This document shows, piece by piece, positions 1 through 34,242 of a stretch of 34,909 nucleotides of DNA. The position numbers and the translations under genes are program-made. Below the pieces are notes generated by a model that was not told the DNA's origin, ran no database searches, and saw only the letters and a list, made by a program, of their open reading frames with translations. Position 1 is the first letter of the stretch. Every line of letters starts with the position of its first letter. The stretch is taken from the NCBI GenBank assembly GCA_029553475.1, contig JAKPKV010000026.1:1-34909 (forward strand), written 5' to 3'. The stretch is from Armatimonadota bacterium (GTDB lineage: Bacteria > Armatimonadota > Hebobacteria > CAIYQO01).

Positions 1-1
1 T

Positions 2-1011
2 GCCGCCACCGAGAACGTCGTCACCATCACCTATCCTGGCAGCCAGACGATGCAATATGTGTCATTTGACGACGAAGGGCGGCTCACGGAACAAGTCGAC
101 GGCAAGGGAGTGCACAAGCAGTTCGTCTACGACGATGACGACGGATTGCTAACGTATATCCACTACCCGGCGACCCCGGCGTTAGATATCCACTTTGACT
201 ACGACGGCTATGGACGCCGGTCGGCGATGACGGATGCCACCGGCTCCACCCAGCTATACCTACGATGATGCGGATAACCTGCTGAGTGTGACCACCGCCT
301 TCGCCGACATGACGCCGGCGCAAAACAAGACCATCAGCTATACCTACTACCCGGATGGCAGCCGAGCGACGATGACGGTGCCTATCCCCGGCGGCACCGG
401 CACCTTCCGCTACCAGTATGACGCGGCGGGGCGGCCTGTCGCGCTGACCAATCCCTTCGGGTAGACGGCGGCCTGGGCGTATGATGCCGTGGGGCGGCTG
501 CAGCGGCAGACGTTGGGCAACCGCGCGTGGACGCGCTACGCCTACAATGACACGGGGCGGTTGGTACGCTTGACGAATTACGCGCCCACAGGCCGTGTGC
601 TCACGGACTTTACTGGTCTGACCTATAGCACCGCGGGGGAATTGACCCAGTTGCGGACGATGGTACCGGGGGTACCCGACGCCAGCGGGACGATGGACTA
701 TACCTATGGACAGCAGCGGGCAGTTGACGGAGGAGGCCTCCACGCGGCATGGCGGCTACACCGATGCCTTCACCTACGACGCTGCCGGTAACCCGACACT
801 CTTTAAAGGGGTAACGCTGACCCCGTACAACAGCAATAACCAGTTGACGGCGACCGGGTATGCCTATGACGGCAATGGGAATCCCACCACCTACCAGGGC
901 AACACGCTCACCTTTGACCCTGATAACCATCTGAACGAATTTAGGACCGCCCAGAATGTGGTGCTGATGGCGGCTGGGTATAATGGTGACGGACTACGGG
1001 CATGGAAATAG
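2..1011 (+). pseudogene. RHS/YD-repeat protein, upstream part, disrupted
   Basis: This is the interior of an RHS (rearrangement hotspot) shell protein, truncated by the left edge. Reading starts in the frame of base 2 and gives YD-type repeats such as FDYDGYGRRSAMTDATGS and YTYDDADNLLSV. The frame is lost near 243-255. It continues in the next frame until a TAG at 462-464, inside FG*TAAWAYDAVGRL. A second frame change lies at about 703-706, where one extra G would explain the move from MDYTY to DSSGQLTEEA. A second TAG at 1009-1011 separates AWK from TAVGRTYFLYDG. RHS proteins form a shell around a C-terminal toxin and are secreted or displayed in interbacterial competition. Two frameshifts plus two stops mean that no full-length product can be made. 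The YD repeats make the family assignment secure. Confidence 0.85.
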
Positions 1012-1017
1012 ACAGCG

Positions 1018-1764
1018 GTGGGACGCACCTACTTCCTGTATGATGGACACACCCTCGTCTGCGAATTGGATGAGACGGGGGCACCGATGGCAGTGATAAC
1101 CTGGGGGGCGACGGGGTTGCTAGCGCGGAATAGTACCTGGTATACCTACGATCCGCAGGGGAATGTGGCGCAGCGGCTGGACGCGACCGGCACGGTGCAG
1201 TCGACGGACCAGTATGACGCCTGGGGAAACCGGCTGTCGGGTGGATCGGCGAACGATCCGTATGGGTACCGAGCACAGTATGGGTACTACACGGATGCTG
1301 AGACAGGGTTGCTGCTGTGCACCTTCCGTTACTACAATCCGACACTGGGACGTTGCCTAACTCGTGATCCGATAGAATATCGTGATGGCAGGAATTTGTA
1401 TAGTTATGTTAAAAACAACGCCGTTAACAATATTGACCCGTCAGGTCTATATAGTCAATATCAAAGATTTTTTCTAAACTGTTACTATACAATTAGTATT
1501 GCACCTAAAATTCCTTTTAGTTGGAGTGCTACACTCGGTTTCATTTCAGCTATTCCTTATCTGGTAAGTCGAGAATCTATATGTCACAATGTAACAAGAG
1601 CTGGTATCGTGACGATTATTACAAAAATGCCTCAATGGGCGGTGTTAATTTCTACAATTTCTAGATATGTAGCTGTTGCAGCCGTTGGCTGGGAAGCTGG
1701 CTCTATGTCAACTTGCGCTTTTCCGTATTACCAAGATTATTGGTGCAGTAATGGGCCATATTAA
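1018..1764 (+). CDS. RHS core C-terminal fragment with variable tip
   Basis: This open 248-codon stretch continues the broken RHS gene after its second TAG, so it is probably a pseudogene fragment. The first 20 codons have no ribosome binding site of their own. YD repeats (YTYDPQGNVAQRLDATG) lead to the RHS-associated core end: YGYRAQYGYYTDAETGLLLCTFRYYNPTLGRCLTRDPIEY, then NLYSYVKNNAVNNIDPSGL near residues 127-145. The motif DPSGL ends the conserved core. The roughly 105 residues after it are a tip unrelated to the core: hydrophobic, with several Cys and a WEAGS segment. Base composition drops from GC-rich to AT-rich just before the tip (about base 1370), as is typical when tips are swapped by recombination. 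I do not recognise the tip's activity. It may be a toxin domain or a remnant of one. Confidence 0.7.
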   Translation: MGRTYFLYDGHTLVCELDETGAPMAVITWGATGLLARNSTWYTYDPQGNVAQRLDATGTVQSTDQYDAWGNRLSGGSANDPYGYRAQYGYYTDAETGLLLCTFRYYNPTLGRCLTRDPIEYRDGRNLYSYVKNNAVNNIDPSGLYSQYQRFFLNCYYTISIAPKIPFSWSATLGFISAIPYLVSRESICHNVTRAGIVTIITKMPQWAVLISTISRYVAVAAVGWEAGSMSTCAFPYYQDYWCSNGPY

Positions 1765-1858
1765 TGCCAGTGCAGGTTTGCAGTAATAGCCGGATTGTTC
1801 GCGATGATAAAAAGGGCAACAGACTGTTTTTGAGTTTGCGCGAAGAATTTCCTTCGTG

Positions 1859-1927
1859 AGTAGTCCGGCATAGGTAAGATTATATCGTGCTACTCCTGAA
1901 GCGTGAACTTGAGAAGATACAGACCTT
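1859..1927 (+). repeat. Hairpin-bearing direct repeat, copy A
   Basis: This is a 69-bp element about 80% identical to 4083-4150, in the same orientation. Both share GGTAAGATT, the centre CTCCTGAAG and the end GATACA(G)ACCTT. Copy A is the more diverged and forms only a weak stem. It lies about 95 bp after the RHS tip stop codon. The rest of 1765-1980 holds nothing else that I recognise, apart from the ribosome binding site of the next gene. Confidence 0.6.
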
Positions 1928-1980
1928 ACCTTACCACTGCCGTGGTAATATCGATGTGAGGACCATCGGAGGATATACAG

Positions 1981-2805
1981 ATGCCAATCTGGAAAGAAAA
2001 AGTGGGTCGTTGGATATTTGTCTATCTGTTATCAATGCTGATAGTAATATTTATCCCTTCAGATATTTATGGATATACGCTAATAGTAATCGGCGCAAGT
2101 CTTTTTATTATAAAATCAAATTGTGTGCGATCTAAACTGGAGGGATATAATTTTATTTTGATTTCAGCCATAGCTCAAATACTTGCATTAGCGCTTGTAA
2201 CTGTTGGGCTATTAGTGAATTCGATGTTCTTTGTTTTGGCTACCGTCTTAATGATAGGCAGCGCTTTACTTACTTACTTGGGAGAGAAGCATATAACTAT
2301 TGCTATTCCGCAATATGGTGCCGAGTCGATTATTTTAACATTGTACTCGATGTTACTATTATTTGGTATCAATTTTAATATTGGCCAGTCGTTCGGAAAG
2401 GTGCTTGTCGCCCATTTGGCATTGTTAACAATAGCATTAATGAGAAATACTAGACTGATTTTTACCCATGCAAACTCGCAAACAGCAAACGGAACATTGA
2501 TTGCGAAAGTAGATGTCCGTTTTTGCGATATAAAAGGTATGCAAGCGATTATAAATTCCTTCGGATTACCCTCTGGTTATATTGGAGGAATAATGATCGT
2601 TATTGATATAATTATTATAATAGTTGTTGGCTTAAAAACACATCCGTTTGATTTAAGGCAATTTATACTGCCGATGCAGAGCGCTATTCGGGCGAATAGA
2701 CAGTTGGATACCGTAGATACTGGCAGATTATCAGGGGAATGGGCAAAGATTTCGGTACCGAGGCGACGGGGATCACCTCAAGAGGATGTGGAGGTGTTCA
2801 GGTGA
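1981..2805 (+). CDS. AT-rich multi-pass membrane protein, unknown function
   Basis: The product is not recognised. The start is supported by GGAGG eight bases upstream of the ATG. The 274-residue product has about six to seven hydrophobic segments: residues ~12-40, ~55-100 (probably two), ~115-135, ~140-155 and ~198-220, the last being very rich in Ile and Val. There is no signal-peptide cleavage motif. The DNA is strongly AT-rich, unlike the chromosomal genes to the right, and sits directly behind an RHS tip, so a role as a membrane immunity protein or an orphan tip is possible but unproven. From about base 2745 the composition turns GC-rich and the last ~20 residues (PRRRGSPQEDVEVFR) look unlike the rest. 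The original C-terminus may have been replaced by sequence next to a decayed transposon. Confidence 0.5.
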   Translation: MPIWKEKVGRWIFVYLLSMLIVIFIPSDIYGYTLIVIGASLFIIKSNCVRSKLEGYNFILISAIAQILALALVTVGLLVNSMFFVLATVLMIGSALLTYLGEKHITIAIPQYGAESIILTLYSMLLLFGINFNIGQSFGKVLVAHLALLTIALMRNTRLIFTHANSQTANGTLIAKVDVRFCDIKGMQAIINSFGLPSGYIGGIMIVIDIIIIIVVGLKTHPFDLRQFILPMQSAIRANRQLDTVDTGRLSGEWAKISVPRRRGSPQEDVEVFR

Positions 2806-2837
2806 GCGATGTGCGGGTGGGGGAGCACTCAGTCTGC

Positions 2838-2888
2838 TCACCGGTAGGTATGATACAGCCCGCCGAGCAGCGGTTCCGCCTGTAATGG
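2838..2888 (-). pseudogene. Transposase (integrase-type) C-terminal remnant, copy 1
   Basis: The minus strand reads PLQAEPLLGGLYHTYR followed by TGA. This closely matches the end of the larger remnant at 4188-4549 (PLSAEPILGGLYHIYQRAA). Only the last ~17 codons are recognisable. The two remnants have the same orientation, so the island was probably hit by, or assembled from, related insertion sequences. The short plus-strand ORF that spans this stretch is therefore partly transposon DNA read backwards. Confidence 0.6.
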
Positions 2889-3025
2889 ATAACCTAGGAG
2901 AACTTGCTGGGCTAGCCAGGATGGGGAATTGGCAGGCGTATGTAAGTCGAATTATGGGGAGAACATTCTCCTTGTTTAAAATGATGGATAAAGCTATCGG
3001 TGAGGCGGAGAAATTGTTAAGATAG
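2885..3025 (+). CDS. Small hypothetical ORF, doubtful
   Basis: A 46-codon stretch starts at an ATG directly beside the transposase remnant (MDNLGELAGLARMGNWQAY...). No ribosome binding site is visible. The sequence is predicted to be helical and amphipathic (KMMDKAIGEAEKLL). It might be the tail of a displaced RHS tip or toxin, since the gene right after it resembles an immunity gene, or it may not be coding. The reading frame stays open further upstream to 2786, but that part overlaps the transposon remnant. Confidence 0.2.
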   Translation: MDNLGELAGLARMGNWQAYVSRIMGRTFSLFKMMDKAIGEAEKLLR

Positions 3026-3113
3026 CTTATTATATACTGCGTTGTACGGCTGGAATATGATAGTAGCTTCTGTCAGTATTATTGACAGCGTTAACACTAA
3101 TGAGGAGGGACCA

Positions 3114-3827
3114 ATGACCTCGTGTACTTATATTGATGTGAAAGAAGTACAATTCATATGTGAAATGCTGTTTTATGAGTTGAAAAAACATGGATATACC
3201 GCATACTATAATCGGTTTGGTGTTTATATGGAGTTTACAGACGACTATTTTCAGGCCATAGATTCTAATGAGGAACAATTAAAGAGTTCTATTGGTTATT
3301 TGTATATCGCAGAAGATTGCATGATGCCTATGATGGACGTGTCTACTGGTAAAGATGTGCCTTCGACGATGACTTTAAATCAACTTGGTGTCTTATTTCG
3401 TACGATAGGCACACTCCGTTCCGCTGTTTTAGGGATGGAGCCCTCTGCAGAGAGTTCGCTGGTATCTAATAATGAAGTATTGACTATAGCAGATATGAAA
3501 ACTGTAGCCGATTTACTCTTCGTTGAATATATTGAGAGAGGTATTGGGCGACTTGTGATACCTTTCAATCATTATTGGGATATCAGGGAAGACGTATCTA
3601 GATACATTTTCCCCGATACCTCTGAAGTAGATTTTCCAATATATTCCATATCAGATACCTGGGATGAGTTAATAGAAAACTGCACAATTAGAAAAGATTT
3701 TGTGAAGATGCTAGGTAATTATGATGAGTTGCCTGGTATTATTGAATACTTCAATAAAACAAGCGGTGGATTGTATAAGTTGTTTTCAATGGCAGGAATA
3801 ATATGCTATTTTAGCGAATTGCCATGA
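3114..3827 (+). CDS. Hypothetical acidic protein, possible RHS immunity protein
   Basis: The product is not recognised. The ATG at 3114 is chosen over the upstream in-frame start at 3042 because GAGGAGGGA lies just before it. The 237-residue product is soluble, rich in acidic and aromatic residues, and lacks signal peptide or membrane segments. Examples are CEMLFYELKKHGYTAYYNRFGVYMEF at the N-terminus and ISDTWDELIENCTIRKDF in the C-terminal half. The gene is AT-rich like the RHS tip and membrane ORF before it, and it sits where immunity genes usually follow RHS tips. Immunity function is inferred from position, size and composition only. It is intact and well initiated, unlike the debris around it. 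Confidence 0.6.
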   Translation: MTSCTYIDVKEVQFICEMLFYELKKHGYTAYYNRFGVYMEFTDDYFQAIDSNEEQLKSSIGYLYIAEDCMMPMMDVSTGKDVPSTMTLNQLGVLFRTIGTLRSAVLGMEPSAESSLVSNNEVLTIADMKTVADLLFVEYIERGIGRLVIPFNHYWDIREDVSRYIFPDTSEVDFPIYSISDTWDELIENCTIRKDFVKMLGNYDELPGIIEYFNKTSGGLYKLFSMAGIICYFSELP

Positions 3828-3878
3828 GTTGTTGTAGTTCCGCTATGAAAATATACAATTGTAGAGTGTAGAGTTTAA

Positions 3879-4136
3879 ATGGGTATCGGTGGAAGAGTTG
3901 GGTGCTTTGTTTGGGCCATCGGCATTCTCATTATAGGCTTACTGTCGCCAATCGTGCATCTAAGTTTGATGGGTATACACATCACGGACGAAAGGCTTGG
4001 CAAATGCAGTATGGCATTAAATAACAATATGAAACAAAAAATTAAAATCCCGAGGATGGATCTCTACCTTCTGATGCGTGTTACTACTCCGGCATTGGTA
4101 AGATTGTATCTCGCGCCTCCTGAAGTGCGAACTTAA
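3879..4136 (+). CDS. Small putative membrane protein, doubtful
   Basis: An 85-codon ORF with one hydrophobic segment at about residues 8-30 (CFVWAIGILIIGLLSPIVHLSLMG). No clear ribosome binding site precedes the ATG. The last ~18 residues are encoded inside repeat copy B and the stop codon lies within the repeat, so the C-terminus was probably created by the repeat's arrival or spread. It could be a fragment of an immunity or membrane gene, or non-coding. Confidence 0.3.
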   Translation: MGIGGRVGCFVWAIGILIIGLLSPIVHLSLMGIHITDERLGKCSMALNNNMKQKIKIPRMDLYLLMRVTTPALVRLYLAPPEVRT

Positions 4137-4549: not shown

Positions 4550-4621
4550 TAAGTATGCATATCGAGATGAAACAGCGTGGTTCCACTCTGGCAATCACGC
4601 CATTCAATTACTGAAGTCATC

Positions 4622-6505
4622 ATGCACCAGCAACATGGTACCCATCACCATCATACTGTAACAACCGGAACGGGAGTATGGCAGCGTTTGTATGCGCTGC
4701 TGGCTTTGCCACTGCTGCTTGTCGGTAGCTGGGCCTTTCCCTTTGTCGGCTTCATACTCTTCCTCTGGATGGGCGCTGCCGTGCTGCCGGCTTTCTGGCG
4801 CGGACGGACGTTTTGTCATCTCTGCCCACGTGGGATCTTCTTTGATGCTGTCCTGCCTCGGTTCAGTCGGCGAGTGCGTATCCCGGTGCTGTTCCGCGGC
4901 ACCGCCTTCCGTCTGATTATGCTGGGCACGTTGATAGCCGTGATGGGTTCTCTGCTCTGGCGCACCTGGGGCGTTCTTGACCGCATGGGCGCTGGATTGG
5001 GCAGCTTGTTGCTCGGCACCACGCTCTTCGGCATTGTGCTGGCTGTTCTCTTTGCTCCGCGTGCCTGGTGCAGCATCTGCCCCATGGGCACCATGGCCGC
5101 CTGGATTGGGCGTGGTAAATACCCGCTGCAGGTTGATGCCACCCGCTGCACTCAGTGTGGCGCCTGCGCGCGGGCATGTCCTCTGCAACTTCGCCCTGGC
5201 AGCTTTGCTGAAGGCGGGCAGATGGTCGCTGGCGACTGCATCAAGTGTGGTACTTGCGTGAAGACTTGCCGTCAGCAGGCCCTCGCCTTTCCCGGCTCCA
5301 CCCCTCCAGCCTCGCAACCCATCTATCTGAACCATGCCGCCACCTCATGGCCTAAAGCCCCAGGCGTTGCACACGCGATGACCGAGGTACTGCAGGCCAT
5401 GCCAGCCGTGATGGGCCGCACGCATGGCGTGTCCGACCCAACCCGCTGTCCCCTTGGGCCACTGGTACAGGAATGCCGGGAGCGCCTGGCGACGTTGCTC
5501 GATGTGGATGATATGCACCACAACGCGCTTACCGCCGGCGCCACCGCCGCCCTGAACCAGGCCATCTGGGGTATCGGCCTTACTCTACCACCCGGCGCGC
5601 ATATCATCACCTCCGTTGCCGAGCATAACGCCGTTCTCCGTCCCCTTCGCCACCTTCAGCGCCATCGGCAGGTGCGCGTCACCTATCTCGGTTTCGATGC
5701 CACCGGCGCCCTGGACGCTGGGGCCTTCAGTCGCCTCGTCGCCGACGACCCGCCAGCGCTGGTTGTCTTCACCCACGCCTCCAACGTCACTGGACGGGTC
5801 TACGCCATCGGCCCGCTCTTCGAGCGAGCGAAAGCTGTGGGCGCGATTACTGTACTGGATGCATCCCAGGCCATCGGTCATCGCCCGGTCCATCCGCGAG
5901 CGCTTCAGGCCGACCTGGTGGCGTTCCCCGCCCATAAAGGTTTGCTCGGCCCTGCGGGGGTCGGCGTGCTCTACATGGCTCCGGGCATTGACATGGAGCC
6001 GCTGCTCGTCGGCGGCACCGGGGAAGACAGCGACGCCGTCTTCCATCCGATGGCCATGCCGGCTCGGCTGGAAGCCGGCACTCCCAACAGCCCCGGCATC
6101 GCCGGATTCACTGCTGCCTTGCGCTGGCAGGAGCAGGACAGCGAAGCCTACCGACATCGTGAGCGGGAACTCGCTGCCTCCCTGCGCGCCGGCCTGCGTG
6201 CTATCCCTGGTGTGCGCCTGTATGATGACTTGCCGGATGGTGAATACGTTCCCGTTGTCTCCTTCACCTTCGACGGCCTCAGCGTGGAGGAGGCTGGCCA
6301 TCAACTCGCGGCACGCGGCATTGTCTGCCGTACCGGCCTGCATTGTGCACCGCTGATGCACAACGCCCTCGGCACCGCGCCGGAGGGGACGATTCGCTTC
6401 AGCGTATCAGGCTGCATGACGCATGAAGAGATCAAGCAGGCGCTCGGTGTGGTGACTGATTTGGCAATAAGACCTGCTATTAGAAGTCAAGAGGTCGAAC
6501 GATGA
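4622..6505 (+). CDS. Membrane polyferredoxin fused to class-V aminotransferase (cysteine desulfurase-like)
   Basis: This is a 627-residue two-part protein. Residues 1-~220 resemble NapH/RdxA-type ferredoxins: a His-rich start (HGTHHHH), hydrophobic helices near 22-58, 95-113 and 123-146, CxxCP motifs at C65/C68 and C150/C153, then two four-Cys cluster motifs (C176-C179-C182-C186 and C206-C209-C212-C216). Residues ~233-610 form a class-V aminotransferase close to the cysteine desulfurase family. Visible features are the opening YLNHAATSWPKAPG, H335 in EHN, D413 in LDASQAIGH, the PLP lysine K439 in AHKG, and C575 in RTGLHCAP, which sits where the SufS catalytic Cys is. It probably removes sulfur from cysteine at the membrane next to a redox relay; the substrate is unknown. 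An alternative GTG start at 4577 adds 15 residues; neither start has a strong ribosome binding site. Confidence 0.85.
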   Translation: MHQQHGTHHHHTVTTGTGVWQRLYALLALPLLLVGSWAFPFVGFILFLWMGAAVLPAFWRGRTFCHLCPRGIFFDAVLPRFSRRVRIPVLFRGTAFRLIMLGTLIAVMGSLLWRTWGVLDRMGAGLGSLLLGTTLFGIVLAVLFAPRAWCSICPMGTMAAWIGRGKYPLQVDATRCTQCGACARACPLQLRPGSFAEGGQMVAGDCIKCGTCVKTCRQQALAFPGSTPPASQPIYLNHAATSWPKAPGVAHAMTEVLQAMPAVMGRTHGVSDPTRCPLGPLVQECRERLATLLDVDDMHHNALTAGATAALNQAIWGIGLTLPPGAHIITSVAEHNAVLRPLRHLQRHRQVRVTYLGFDATGALDAGAFSRLVADDPPALVVFTHASNVTGRVYAIGPLFERAKAVGAITVLDASQAIGHRPVHPRALQADLVAFPAHKGLLGPAGVGVLYMAPGIDMEPLLVGGTGEDSDAVFHPMAMPARLEAGTPNSPGIAGFTAALRWQEQDSEAYRHRERELAASLRAGLRAIPGVRLYDDLPDGEYVPVVSFTFDGLSVEEAGHQLAARGIVCRTGLHCAPLMHNALGTAPEGTIRFSVSGCMTHEEIKQALGVVTDLAIRPAIRSQEVER

Positions 6506-29067: not shown

Positions 29068-30879
29068 ATGAACGTACTGGTGCTGCTCCTCATCAGCGGG
29101 GCGATTTTCATCGTCGCGGCGCGGCTCTACGGCCGCCTGGTGGCGCGCTGGGTGGGTGAGGATGTCAACCGCCCGACCCCCGCCACGACGATGACCGATG
29201 GCTGCGATTACGTGCCGACGAATCCCAACGTGGTGTTCGCCCACCATTTTTCCGCCATCGCCGGCGCCGGGCCGATCGTCGGCCCCACGATGGCGATCCT
29301 CTACGGCGTGCTGCCGGTCTGGCTGTGGGTGGTGGTCGGCGGGGTGCTCATCGGCGCGGTGCACGATTTCACCACCCTGTTCATCAGCCTGCGCGAGCGC
29401 GGCCGCTCGATGGCGGAGATCGCGCGTACCACCCTCGGCGACCGGGGGTTCCTGCTCTTTATCTGCTTCGCCACGGTGATGATCATCCTCGTCACCTCCG
29501 CCTTCCTGGCGATGACCGCCACCGCGCTCACCAGCTTCGTGCCCCTCACGCTGCTCAAGCTGCCGCCGGACCAGCACTTGTTACGCACCGTGACGGATGG
29601 CGGCGTGGTGAAAGGCGCCATCGGCGGCATTGCCTCCACCTCGGTCGTGATCATCACCCTGTTCGCGCCGGTGCTGGGCTGGCTGCTCTTCAAAAGGAAG
29701 CTGACGCCGTGGGTCGGCTATCCGCTGGCGCTGCTGGTCAGTTTCGCCTCGATCTGGATCGGCGTGCACTGGCCCATCACGCTCGATCCGAAAGTCTGGA
29801 TGGTCATCATGACCGTCTACGTACTCTTCGCCGCCGGATTGCCGATCTGGCTGGTGCTGCAGCCGCGTGACTTCATCAACGTGCAGGTGCTCTACGCGGG
29901 CATCCTGGCGATGGTCGTGGGACTGGTCATCGGCGGGGCGCAGCATCTCCAGGTGACGTTTCCGGCGATGGCGGTGGCGCAGGGCACGGCGCAGCTCGGC
30001 GCGCTGTGGCCGATGCTCTTCATCACCGTCGCCTGTGGGGCGATCTCCGGCTTTCACGCGCTGGTCGCCACCGGCACCACCGCCAAGCAAGTGGCCCGTG
30101 AAGGTCACGCGCGCGCCATCGGTTTCAACGGCATGCTGCTGGAGTCGCTGGTGGCGGTGGGCGTGGTGCTGGTCGTCGGCTCGACGCTCACCCAGGGGCA
30201 GTATATGAGCTTCGTCTGGCCGGAGGCGCCGGGGATCAGCAACCCCATCGCCGCCTTCGCGGTGGCGCTGGGCACGCTGCTGGAACGCACGCTGCACCTG
30301 CCGGTGGCGTATGGCGCGATTTTCGGCATCCTCCTCGTCGAAGGATTCGTCGTCACCACCCTGGACGCCGCCGTGCGCCTGAACCGCTACCTCTTCGAGG
30401 AGATGTGGGGACTGCTGTTCAAGGGGAAGGTGCCGGCGGTGCTGCGCTGGCCGTGGTTCAACTCCGCGCTGGCGGCGGCGCTGATGCTGCTCTTCGCCTG
30501 GTACAACGCCTTCAAGGCGCTCTGGCCGCTTTTCGCCACCGGCAACCAGATGCTGGCGGCGCTGTCGCTCATTGCCGTCTCCGCCTGGCTGCTCACGCGC
30601 AAGCGGCAGGCGTGGTTCACGCTGCTCCCCGCCGGGTTCATGATCCTCACCACCATCGCGTCGCTGCTCATCCAGCTGCAGAAGTATCTGGCCGCGCTCT
30701 TTGGCTCGCCGGCGGCGTTGTTCACCCCCGCGCTGCGCGGCACGCTGCTGCTCTGCGTCACCGACCTGCTGCTGCTGGGGCTGTCCGTCGGCATGGTGGC
30801 GCTGGCGGTCCGCGCCATCAGCCGTTTTCGCGCGGGCGAGGGCGCCGCGGCGCCGCCGGAGCCGACGCTGGCGGGGTAG
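29068..30879 (+). CDS. cstA: CstA-family carbon starvation transporter
   Basis: This is an inner-membrane transporter of the CstA family, which takes up pyruvate and/or peptides when cells starve. The 603-residue product is almost entirely membrane helices (about 15). It carries the family signature near the start: RPTPATTMTDGCDYVPTNPNVVFAHHFSAIAGAGPIVGPTMA, followed by GAVHDFTTLFISLRERGRSMAEI. FHALVATGTTAKQVA and AAFAVALGTLLERT are also conserved. E. coli CstA is ~700 residues, so this one is in the shorter half of the family. GAGG precedes the ATG. It has its own promoter. The gene is followed by a 216-bp region with another promoter. The symbol is by family; the substrate is not shown. Confidence 0.92.
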   Translation: MNVLVLLLISGAIFIVAARLYGRLVARWVGEDVNRPTPATTMTDGCDYVPTNPNVVFAHHFSAIAGAGPIVGPTMAILYGVLPVWLWVVVGGVLIGAVHDFTTLFISLRERGRSMAEIARTTLGDRGFLLFICFATVMIILVTSAFLAMTATALTSFVPLTLLKLPPDQHLLRTVTDGGVVKGAIGGIASTSVVIITLFAPVLGWLLFKRKLTPWVGYPLALLVSFASIWIGVHWPITLDPKVWMVIMTVYVLFAAGLPIWLVLQPRDFINVQVLYAGILAMVVGLVIGGAQHLQVTFPAMAVAQGTAQLGALWPMLFITVACGAISGFHALVATGTTAKQVAREGHARAIGFNGMLLESLVAVGVVLVVGSTLTQGQYMSFVWPEAPGISNPIAAFAVALGTLLERTLHLPVAYGAIFGILLVEGFVVTTLDAAVRLNRYLFEEMWGLLFKGKVPAVLRWPWFNSALAAALMLLFAWYNAFKALWPLFATGNQMLAALSLIAVSAWLLTRKRQAWFTLLPAGFMILTTIASLLIQLQKYLAALFGSPAALFTPALRGTLLLCVTDLLLLGLSVGMVALAVRAISRFRAGEGAAAPPEPTLAG

Positions 30880-30961: not shown

Positions 30962-30990
30962 TTGCACGATCTATTTCGGCCGCTTATAAT
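30962..30990 (+). promoter_or_regulatory. Promoter for the Cas3-like gene
   Basis: TTGCAC (30962-30967), a 17-base spacer and a perfect TATAAT (30985-30990) make the best sigma-70-type match in the window. Transcription would start near 30997, leaving a ~100-base leader that contains a palindrome and a phased repeat before the GTG at 31096. Confidence 0.65.
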
Positions 30991-31080: not shown

Positions 31081-31095
31081 GCAGCGGAGGCCGTC

Positions 31096-33411
31096 GTGCA
31101 GCGAACGCTCACCGAGATTTTCAGTCCATCGGTATCCCCGCACGATCTCCGGGGCGGCTGGACGCCGCGTCCCTTTCAACTCGCCGTCACCGAGGCGCTG
31201 CTCTCCGGCCGGCGGGCGGTGCTGCGCGCTCCGGCGGCCAGCGGGAAAGCCATCGCCGCCTGGTCCGCGTGGCTGGCCAGCCGGCAATATCCGTACGATT
31301 TTCCGCCCTCGCTGCTGCACGCCGTGCCGGGCGGCATCTCGCTGAGCGGGCTGCACCGCCGACTGCAAACGTTGACCGCGTCGCACGGCGGGCTGCGCGT
31401 GAGCGTGCAGACCGAAGGCGACGCGTTTGATCCTTTCCTGATCAGCGATGCCGTGCTCACCACGCCGGAAGAGCTGTTGAGCATCGCGCTCACCCGTCCG
31501 ATGGGGCTGCATCCCGGCCTGGGGAATATCAATGCCGGCGCGCTGCTCGGCGCGTACCTGGTCTTCGACGAGTTTCCGGCGCTGGTCTCGCGCCTCCACC
31601 TCCTGGCCTGGCTCGGCCTGCTGCGCGCCTATCTGCCCATGGCCCCCTGCCTCTTCATGACGGCGACCTGGCCGCGGGCGCTCTGCGCGCGGGTGGCGGA
31701 GCTGCTCGACGCCGATCTCATTGACGCCAGCGCCTATGACGGCGGCGGCACGCGCACCTGGGAGGCGCTGCCCGCCGCGCCGGTGGAAACGATCCTGCGG
31801 CGGCACGAACGGCGCACGATGGTCGTCTGCAATACCGTGCGCGGCGCGCAGGTGCTCTACCGCGCGCTGCGGGGGCAGATGACGCACGGTTTTCGGGGGA
31901 CCGAGCTGCTGCTGCTGCATCAGCACCAGTTCTTCCGCGAACGAGACGCCATCGCGGCACGCGTCATTGACGCCTTCGCGACGCCCGGGCAGCAGACGAT
32001 CCTCGTCACCACCCCGGGCATCGAGGTCGCGGCGGATATCTCCGTGGACCTGCTCATCACCGACCCCGCGCCGCCCGACGCGCTGCTGCGCCGCGCCGGC
32101 CGCTGCGGACGGCGTCCGGGCGAGCAGGGCGAAGTGGTGGTGGGGCCGGTGAGCGAGTATGCCCCCGGCGAACAGTACCCCACGCCCGCCGCCGACGCGC
32201 TGCTGGCGCGCCTCACCGATGGCTCTCCGCATGCCTTCCCTGCTGAACTGGCGGCGCTGGATGCGGTATGGGAGACCGCCGGCGACGCGGAGCTGCCGGA
32301 CGCCGTGCGGCTGCCGCCGGGCACCGACGAAGCGGAGACAACCATCCGCGCGCTGATGGAAGCCCGCGAGAGCTTCCCGCCGGCGCTGTTTTCGCGCGTG
32401 GGCGCCTGCCTGCACCGCATGCCGGAGACGGTGGCGGATCCCTTCGAGCTGGAGCGCTTCTCGCTGGCGGTGCCGTCGCTGGAGCGCGGCTGGCGGCAGT
32501 GGCAGGCCAGCGGCGCCCCGGCGGAATGGTTCGCGCTGCTGCCGCGCTGGCCCGCCGGTCCTGAACAGCCGCCGACCTGGTCCGTGGTGCAGACGGCGGA
32601 GGAATTCCACGCCGCCTCGCGGCTGGTGGTGCTGAACGCCGACGCGGTGAGCTACGATCCGGTGATCGGATTGGAGCTGATGCCCGGCACGCCGTATGAA
32701 AGCGTGCGCCTTCCCGAACAGCACACCAAGTGGGCGCCCTTCGATCAGCACGTCGAATCGTACCAGGATCACGCGGCGGAAGTGCTGGCGATGGTCGAGC
32801 AATCGCTGCCCTGGTACCGGTTCGTGCTGCGGCAACTGGGCAAGCGCTGGCGCATGCCGCTGGTGGAGATGGAGCAGTGGCTGCGCATCTGCGTGCTCTG
32901 GCACGACGCCGGCAAGCTGACCGACGCGTGGCAGCGCTGCGCGGCGCGCTGGCAGGCGGAGGCGGTGCGGCGTCCTACCCGGCACGGGGTGCTGGCGCGC
33001 ATTGATTATCAGACGGCGCGCCACGGCCCCTTCCCCTGCGGCGATCACGCGAATACCTCCGGCTACGCGCTCATTCGCGCGATCTCCGTGCTGCTGGAGA
33101 ACCGGCCCGCGCTGCAGCAGGGGACGCTGGCCGCCATCATGCATCACCACGGGGTCATCACCCCGCGCCCGCCTGACCTGACGCCGCATCCCGAGGCGTG
33201 GGCGACGCTGCTGGACGTGGCGACGCCGGTGATAGACGATCGCCTGCTCAAGCGGATAGACCGCATGGGGTGGACGGCGTCGCTGCGCGGCAATCCGGAA
33301 GTGCCCCGGCACCCGCCGGTGGATCCGGATGGGTGGATGGCCTACGCGCTGCTCTCGCGGGCTATGCGCCTTGCCGACCGTGACCTCGCCGTTGGCGTGG
33401 TCGCCCGCTGA
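31096..33411 (+). CDS. Cas3-like helicase with C-terminal HD nuclease domain
   Basis: Cas3 proteins unwind and degrade DNA in type I CRISPR systems. Of 771 residues, 1-~370 form a superfamily 2 helicase: a Walker A variant APAASGK (K51), GNINAGALLGAYLVFDEF (D158, E159), MTATWP (188-193), LLHQHQFFRERD (274-283), TTPGIEVAADIS and LLRRAGRCGRR (331-340). Residues ~550-700 look like the HD nuclease Cas3'': H559, LWHDAGK (H603-D604), GDH (H651) and MHHHG (683-685). The usual order in Cas3 is HD first; here it is last, as I recall for some I-G (I-U) relatives. The helicase core is degenerate: GKA instead of GKT, DEFP instead of DEFH. GTG start with CGGAGG six bases upstream. No CRISPR array or other cas gene is in the window. 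Confidence 0.85.
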   Translation: MQRTLTEIFSPSVSPHDLRGGWTPRPFQLAVTEALLSGRRAVLRAPAASGKAIAAWSAWLASRQYPYDFPPSLLHAVPGGISLSGLHRRLQTLTASHGGLRVSVQTEGDAFDPFLISDAVLTTPEELLSIALTRPMGLHPGLGNINAGALLGAYLVFDEFPALVSRLHLLAWLGLLRAYLPMAPCLFMTATWPRALCARVAELLDADLIDASAYDGGGTRTWEALPAAPVETILRRHERRTMVVCNTVRGAQVLYRALRGQMTHGFRGTELLLLHQHQFFRERDAIAARVIDAFATPGQQTILVTTPGIEVAADISVDLLITDPAPPDALLRRAGRCGRRPGEQGEVVVGPVSEYAPGEQYPTPAADALLARLTDGSPHAFPAELAALDAVWETAGDAELPDAVRLPPGTDEAETTIRALMEARESFPPALFSRVGACLHRMPETVADPFELERFSLAVPSLERGWRQWQASGAPAEWFALLPRWPAGPEQPPTWSVVQTAEEFHAASRLVVLNADAVSYDPVIGLELMPGTPYESVRLPEQHTKWAPFDQHVESYQDHAAEVLAMVEQSLPWYRFVLRQLGKRWRMPLVEMEQWLRICVLWHDAGKLTDAWQRCAARWQAEAVRRPTRHGVLARIDYQTARHGPFPCGDHANTSGYALIRAISVLLENRPALQQGTLAAIMHHHGVITPRPPDLTPHPEAWATLLDVATPVIDDRLLKRIDRMGWTASLRGNPEVPRHPPVDPDGWMAYALLSRAMRLADRDLAVGVVAR

Positions 33412-33741: not shown

Positions 33742-34242
33742 ATGAGCGCACAGATGACCACCTGCCGCTGCGGGGACGAGACCGAAGCGCAGAAGCGCGC
33801 CCGCGTCCTTGACGTTGTTGACCAGTATAAGGACCAGGAAGGCAGCCTGATCCAGATCCTCTACCTCGTGCAGGGGATTTACGGCTATCTGCCCATTGAT
33901 ATCCAGCAGCTCATTGCCGAGCGCATGGATCTCCCCCTTTCCGAAATCTATGGCGTCTCGACCTTCTATTCCTTCTTCTCCACGCAGCCGCGCGGCGAAT
34001 ACACCATCAGGGTCTGCATGGGCACCGCCTGCTACGTGCGGGGCGGGGCGAAGATCGTCAAGCGCCTCTCCGAGATGCTCGGCGTCGAGGTGGGCGGCAC
34101 CACCAGGGATCGGAAATTCACCCTGGAGGTCATGCGGTGCCTGGGCGCCTGCGGCCTGGCGCCGGCGATCATGATCAACGACCAGGTCTACCGCCAGGTG
34201 AACCCGGACAAGCTGCACCGCATCATCGAGAAGTGCGACTGA
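33742..34242 (+). CDS. NuoE/HydC-type thioredoxin-like [2Fe-2S] subunit
   Basis: A 166-residue subunit with the complex-I 24-kDa fold. The helical N-terminal half contains ILYLVQGIYGYLPIDIQQLIAERMDLPLSEIYGVSTFYSFF. The thioredoxin-like half carries the four cluster cysteines: C-x4-C in VCMGTACYVRGG and C-x3-C in VMRCLGACGLAPAIMIND. TGAGGAG precedes the ATG by 7 bases. The N-terminal CRCGDE is extra. The partner gene starts 95 bases later and has the NuoF family layout with an added N-terminal [2Fe-2S] domain, as in HydB/HndC of NAD(P)-linked or electron-bifurcating [FeFe]-hydrogenases and some formate dehydrogenases. I therefore favour HydC/HndA over respiratory NuoE, but the third subunit (HydA) is beyond the window. 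Confidence 0.85.
   Translation: MSAQMTTCRCGDETEAQKRARVLDVVDQYKDQEGSLIQILYLVQGIYGYLPIDIQQLIAERMDLPLSEIYGVSTFYSFFSTQPRGEYTIRVCMGTACYVRGGAKIVKRLSEMLGVEVGGTTRDRKFTLEVMRCLGACGLAPAIMINDQVYRQVNPDKLHRIIEKCD

Follow-up and report, generated by a model that had tools for sequence, protein, structure and literature searches.

Cas3 is known as a shredder that is recruited by, or built into, Cascade. Which role might be left, then, for a Cas3-like protein whose gene stands by itself on an Armatimonadota chromosome fragment? This question is raised by a stretch of 34,909 nucleotides, referred to here in its entirety as the window, which represents contig C118 of an assembly of 5.27 Mb (194 contigs; 99.5% complete).

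A helicase-first Cas3 homologue and its surroundings

The open reading frame under study (Table 1) starts with a GTG codon preceded by a GGAGG ribosome site at 31086-31090, and its GC3 value (0.87) is similar to that of the neighboring genes. Its product is a true Cas3 homologue in which the helicase precedes the HD domain: the Pfam models DEAD (27.7 bits, residues 25-195; above the cut-off), Cas3-like_C_2 (PF22590; 71 bits, residues 239-340; cut-off 27) and Cas3_HD (PF18019; 29.9 bits, residues 546-691; cut-off 23.1) all match. The best match to an NCBIfam model is that to TIGR02621, the I-G Cas3 (cas3g), with 105.6 bits, a score far below the cut-off of 400 for this family.

Table 1. Position of the Cas3-like gene, its motifs and its conserved surroundings in the window.
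Feature	Residues	Position	Strand	Remarks
cstA, conserved left neighbor		29068..30879	+	Left neighbor in G002 too
Probable own promoter, TTGCAC-17-TATAAT		30962..30990	+	Recognized by eye from the sequence; under the promoter-scan threshold
Cas3-like gene, helicase then HD, 771 aa		31096..33411	+	ORF intact; Pfam and NCBIfam matches
Walker A, APAASGKA	45-52	31228..31251	+	T of GKT in 41/41 others; A here, S in G002
Motif Ia region, PGG		31327..31335	+	PLR or PVR in six aligned CRISPR-linked helicase-first relatives
Motif II, DEFP	158-161	31567..31578	+	H/Q in 40/41 others, P in 0/41; P also in G002
Motif IV, LLHQHQF	273-279	31912..31932	+	LLHSRF in others
Motif V, TTPGIEVAAD	305-314	32008..32037	+	Q307 absent here and in G002
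Motif VI, RRAGRCGR	332-339	32089..32112	+	Arginines retained
HD nuclease domain	546-771	32731..33408	+	H559, H603, D604, H651, H684, H685, D761 kept
nuoE/hoxE-like 2Fe-2S subunit, conserved right neighbor		33742..34242	+	Right neighbor in G002 too

An earlier note on this DNA had reported that neither CRISPR arrays nor cas genes are found nearby, and our scans bear this out. There is no CRISPR array in the window, the Cascade genes or array that would mark a CRISPR effector do not lie alongside the gene, and no dedicated defense gene was found among the ten other window ORFs scanned, which are housekeeping or unmatched genes. Direct repeats present in the window were rejected as a CRISPR array, their coding similarity being at chance level. 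The sole defense-type match comes from a cysteine-desulfurase-like aminotransferase that cross-matches the SspA/DndA models.

Relatives of the gene and CRISPR loci in the same genomes

Among 291 Armatimonadota genomes, a close relative is present in a single one, the MAG DeMMO6_22 (G002; completeness 91%), which belongs to the same family but to another genus; its protein is 60% identical to that of the window over residues 19-353. An assembly gap interrupts the G002 gene: its first 358 residues come after cstA where contig C144 ends, and its last ~53 residues stand before the nuoE orthologue where contig C79 ends. Both pieces are open reading frames, and from their matching order and identity we infer that they constitute one gene. 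The locus, between cstA and nuoE, is the same in the two genera. TTGTCA ... TATAAT is found directly upstream of the G002 copy, so that both copies carry a TATAAT box with a TTG-type upstream element; the remaining intergenic DNA is unconserved. The promoter-like sites ahead of both copies suggest a single-gene transcript made from its own promoter. A genome of the same genus (G001) was considered as a case of gene absence, and this was rejected: the contig in question (L069, G001:C320, 1-4637) breaks off ~18 nt past cstA and the nuoE orthologue is likewise absent, which points to an assembly gap.

The other relatives in the 291 genomes are five proteins with 29-34% identity (G031, G019, G231, G235, G101), all of which are encoded next to cas genes. 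These five, and a copy on plasmid P2 of Deinococcus gobiensis, are encoded in CRISPR operons whose cas8a, cas7 and cas5 genes are I-A-like; the G019 operon is cut by a contig end inside its cas8-like gene. They resemble the window protein (24-34% identity) in domain order and length and have the HD ligands and a place in the helicase-first group of the tree in common with it, but they lie beside cas8a-cas7-cas5, mostly with cas1 too, and possess canonical motor motifs. No relative was detected among viral contigs, either by alignment of the pair or by a wider alignment, or among phage records; in the GTDB species contigs the G002 contig alone was matched by two narrow peptide patterns, which distant members could escape.

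As an observation in its own right, the I-A-like operons at loci L040, L041, L046, L047, L048 and L113, from Armatimonadota and Deinococcus, encode helicase and HD domain in one chain. In most descriptions, the I-A Cas3 is encoded by two genes. Three Cas8 proteins from these operons that we tested had no match in NCBIfam.

A helicase-first order is uncommon among Cas3 proteins overall, and the earlier note had drawn attention to it as a reversal and had proposed a phylogenetic comparison with I-G and other reversed Cas3s. In a tree built from 43 helicase cores, the window protein and the G002 protein form a pair (100/100) whose stem has a length of 1.08 changes per site, and this pair falls within a helicase-first group (91/90) together with the I-G and I-A-like Cas3s. 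The I-G proteins constitute a separate clade (100/100); the support for the placement of the pair pertains to the helicase-first group as a whole. The helicase-first arrangement is correct as noted and is confirmed by Pfam, but it characterizes a known branch, from which it is inherited, and is therefore not new in itself; it is the normal order in I-G Cas3 (PMC10482374) and in the I-A-like one-chain Cas3s. Like the I-G enzyme, the window protein carries its HD domain at the C-terminus, and unlike it, its gene has no csb1, csb2 or csx17 neighbors.

The genome from which the window derives is by no means devoid of CRISPR systems. The I-E locus on contig C12 is complete and includes a Cas3e of its own (625 bits) and a 13-repeat array, and C132 carries an I-C locus. 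On C36 (L037, G000:C36; 8864-15215) lies a second I-E locus, in which cas8e, cse2, cas7e, cas5, cas6, cas1, cas2 and the first part of an array are present and cas3 is absent; C36 ends inside this array, so that the absence of cas3 pertains to the sequenced side. Cas3 matches in this genome are limited to C12, C132, the window gene and, weakly, C186, and an I-A-like DevR-type Cas7 was found nowhere in it. A cluster lacking cas3, which the earlier note had named beforehand as speaking against a role outside CRISPR, is thus present, and the window protein might be viewed as the distant Cas3 partner of the C36 locus. We consider this very improbable. The repeats of the C12 and C36 loci are nearly identical, and the two loci possibly share one Cas3, that of C12, which can serve both. 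This Cas3e resembles the window protein in combining an SF2 helicase with an HD nuclease, but it has the HD domain first, canonical motifs and a complete locus around it, and the window protein does not group near Cas3e, being placed on the helicase-first branch. Furthermore, G002 retains the gene, and an I-E locus was not detected there: a gene-marker search of this 91%-complete MAG found no Cas1, Cas7e, DevR-type Cas7, Cas10 palm or other Cas3. By the cas markers tested, G002 is apparently CRISPR-free, with missing cas genes conceivable at this level of completeness.

Motor motifs, nuclease site and selection

The GKA ending of the Walker A motif and the DEFP version of motif II noticed previously are both present (residues 50-52 and 158-161), and the alteration of the motor exceeds them. 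This can be gleaned from an alignment of the pair with 41 other Cas3s, mostly from Armatimonadota. In motif IV, HSRF is replaced by HQ(H/Y)Q in the pair, R277 becoming H or Y and F278 becoming Q, with R and F each found in 36 of the 41 others. Position 307 is Q in 40/41 other Cas3s, P in the window protein and S in G002; position 332, Q in all 41, is an arginine in both members and in none of the comparators. The PGG of the motif Ia region also occurs in both. Four changed residues (E126, P161, Q278, R332) are identical in the two members at columns that are fully or nearly invariant in the 41 others. The intact SF2 motor set (GKT, DExH, TQ, QRxGRxxR) is consequently not found, with changes at 52, 161, 277-278, 307 and 332; the residues retained are GK, DE, TAT, H275, D314 and the motif VI arginines (RxGRxxR). 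At 20 of 47 helicase columns that do not vary among six CRISPR-linked relatives, the window protein has a different residue, and the same test applied to each relative in turn yields 1-14 altered columns out of 48-61.

Residues of motifs Ia, II, IV, V and VI in SF2 proteins contact DNA or couple both RecA lobes. In simulations of the NS3 helicase, the motif II residue H293 contacts the motif VI residue Q460 across the lobes (PMC4605317); in our pair, both of these positions, the H in DExH and the Q in motif VI, are substituted. Because motor residues at such coupling and contact positions have been replaced, translocation should be lost or altered in the window protein and its relative. Judging from its GKA, Mg-ATP handling may be impaired in the window copy as well, and ATP binding or hydrolysis may persist in G002, which has GKS. 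One might argue from the retained GK, DE, TAT and RxGRxxR, and from this GKS as a normal Walker A ending, that the SF2 module is an ATP-dependent motor with unusual residues and the protein an active Cas3-like helicase-nuclease outside CRISPR. This is rather unlikely in our view, as the replaced residues in Ia, II, IV, V and VI occupy positions generally known for DNA contact or lobe coupling and neither the proline of motif II nor the arginine of motif VI has a counterpart in the comparators. The new family that the earlier note had envisaged, a clade of isolated genes with the same motif changes, is borne out in so far as several changes are shared with G002; with two members known, this clade is a thin one.

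The HD residues that had previously been described as intact were all found in their places in the window protein, and D761, missing from that list, is to be added as a seventh ligand. None of these seven ligands varies when the window copy is aligned with five helicase-first relatives linked to CRISPR; in G002 the HD region falls into the assembly gap except for its last ~53 residues. Three of 16 invariant HD columns are altered in the window protein, none of them a ligand; the difference from the helicase is a trend (Fisher p 0.13). Conservation of the HD site is no proof of activity, because the metal-site D-to-A variant D625A of I-G Cas3 aggregates (PMC10482374), and it may in part be structural. 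The protein probably cuts DNA through its putative nuclease, in a role outside CRISPR. An AlphaFold2 model derived from the pair of family sequences had a mean pLDDT of 36.8 and was set aside.

Could the gene simply be what is left of an I-A-like CRISPR locus that has been lost, now decaying and without a function? The weakened motor motifs, some of them unlike between the copies (A/S at 52, P/S at 307, E/K at 310), and the long stem branch would fit such a history, but we regard it as improbable. All 771 codons are open, as are the G002 pieces, the HD ligands are complete in the window copy, and both copies have their promoter-like and ribosome sites. Over 350 N-terminal codons of the pair, pN is 0.29 and pS 0.49, compared with a pN of 0.72 for shuffled codon pairs; synonymous sites are near saturation, so that the pN/pS ratio is an upper bound. 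The gene is thus under purifying selection; with pN values of 0.22 for cstA and 0.14 for nuoE, the constraint is looser than that on its two neighbors.

A possible function outside CRISPR

The explanation that we favor, and judge to be reasonably probable, is that, in an ancestor of this family of Armatimonadota, a Cas3 lost its link to CRISPR, that its processive translocation was lost or altered, and that it was kept as a local HD nuclease. The ancestral protein would have been a helicase-first Cas3, nearest to the I-A-like one-chain type, and its gene would since have been inherited in place, between cstA and nuoE, as one gene transcribed from a promoter of its own. The SF2 module would retain its fold and some nucleotide contacts (GK, DE, motif VI arginines) and would have lost those residues expected to couple ATP to stepping: the T of GKT, the H/Q of DExH, the motif VI Q, the motif Ia R, the RF of motif IV and the motif V Q. 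It is probably a DNA-binding or nucleotide-gated clamp and not a processive translocase; its RecA pair would bind DNA or sense nucleotide and then offer a strand to the HD site. Equipped with a full metal site, the HD domain would cut locally, most likely ssDNA, with no guide complex. From the observed sequence, motifs, genome context and selection we infer the loss of translocation, the nuclease activity of the protein, the use of the promoter and the CRISPR independence of the gene. The earlier proposal of a nuclease with a weak or dead motor outside CRISPR is upheld in part, for the stand-alone putative nuclease, and its motor is better described as altered and probably non-processive.

Local cutting by a Cas3 whose motor is silent can be of use, since helicase-dead I-G Cas3 (K39A, D164A) continues to confer protection against plasmid and phage in E. 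coli (PMC10482374) and isolated I-A Cas3 has been described as a strong ssDNase (PMC11246428). In the absence of ATP, cutting by the I-G complex is confined to the loading site (PMC10482374). Local cutting without translocation is the feature that these mutants would share with the window protein; they differ from it in being laboratory-made and in still acting within Cascade. The I-A Cas3 of Thermococcus siculi is inactive without Cascade (PMC11246428). The mycobacterial "orphan Cas3" was rejected as a precedent, as it is a mis-annotated helicase according to the verdict of the authors themselves (PMC10333696), and a survey of isolated cas loci covered those of at least three genes, leaving single cas3 genes outside its scope (PMC5294841).

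As to the substrate, our guess is either invading DNA or host DNA that is damaged or being replicated, and we lean toward innate defense, the clearance of foreign DNA that contains ssDNA. Tentatively, and with slightly less than even confidence, we propose a new CRISPR-free, translocation-silenced family of Cas3 nucleases that arose by a single exaptation in an Armatimonadota lineage and has been maintained in its place by selection as a one-gene innate defense or DNA-maintenance nuclease. If this were true, Cas3 could be converted into a free-standing local nuclease and be kept by selection without Cascade, and nature would have provided a test of the motor's purpose, which has so far been probed by laboratory mutants (PMC10482374). 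Unusual is the combination of an isolated and constrained Cas3 with altered motor coupling residues, an intact nuclease site and one conserved locus in two genera.

Two further regions of the window deserve mention. Positions 1-4136 contain an RHS/YD-repeat remnant and, behind it, ORFs of low GC3 (1981-2805, 3042-3827, 3879-4136), of which the longest two have no Pfam match; this region looks like an Rhs tip with its immunity region. At 4577-6505, a class V aminotransferase follows a 4Fe-4S part (Fer4_5 and Aminotran_5), a fusion that seems unusual.
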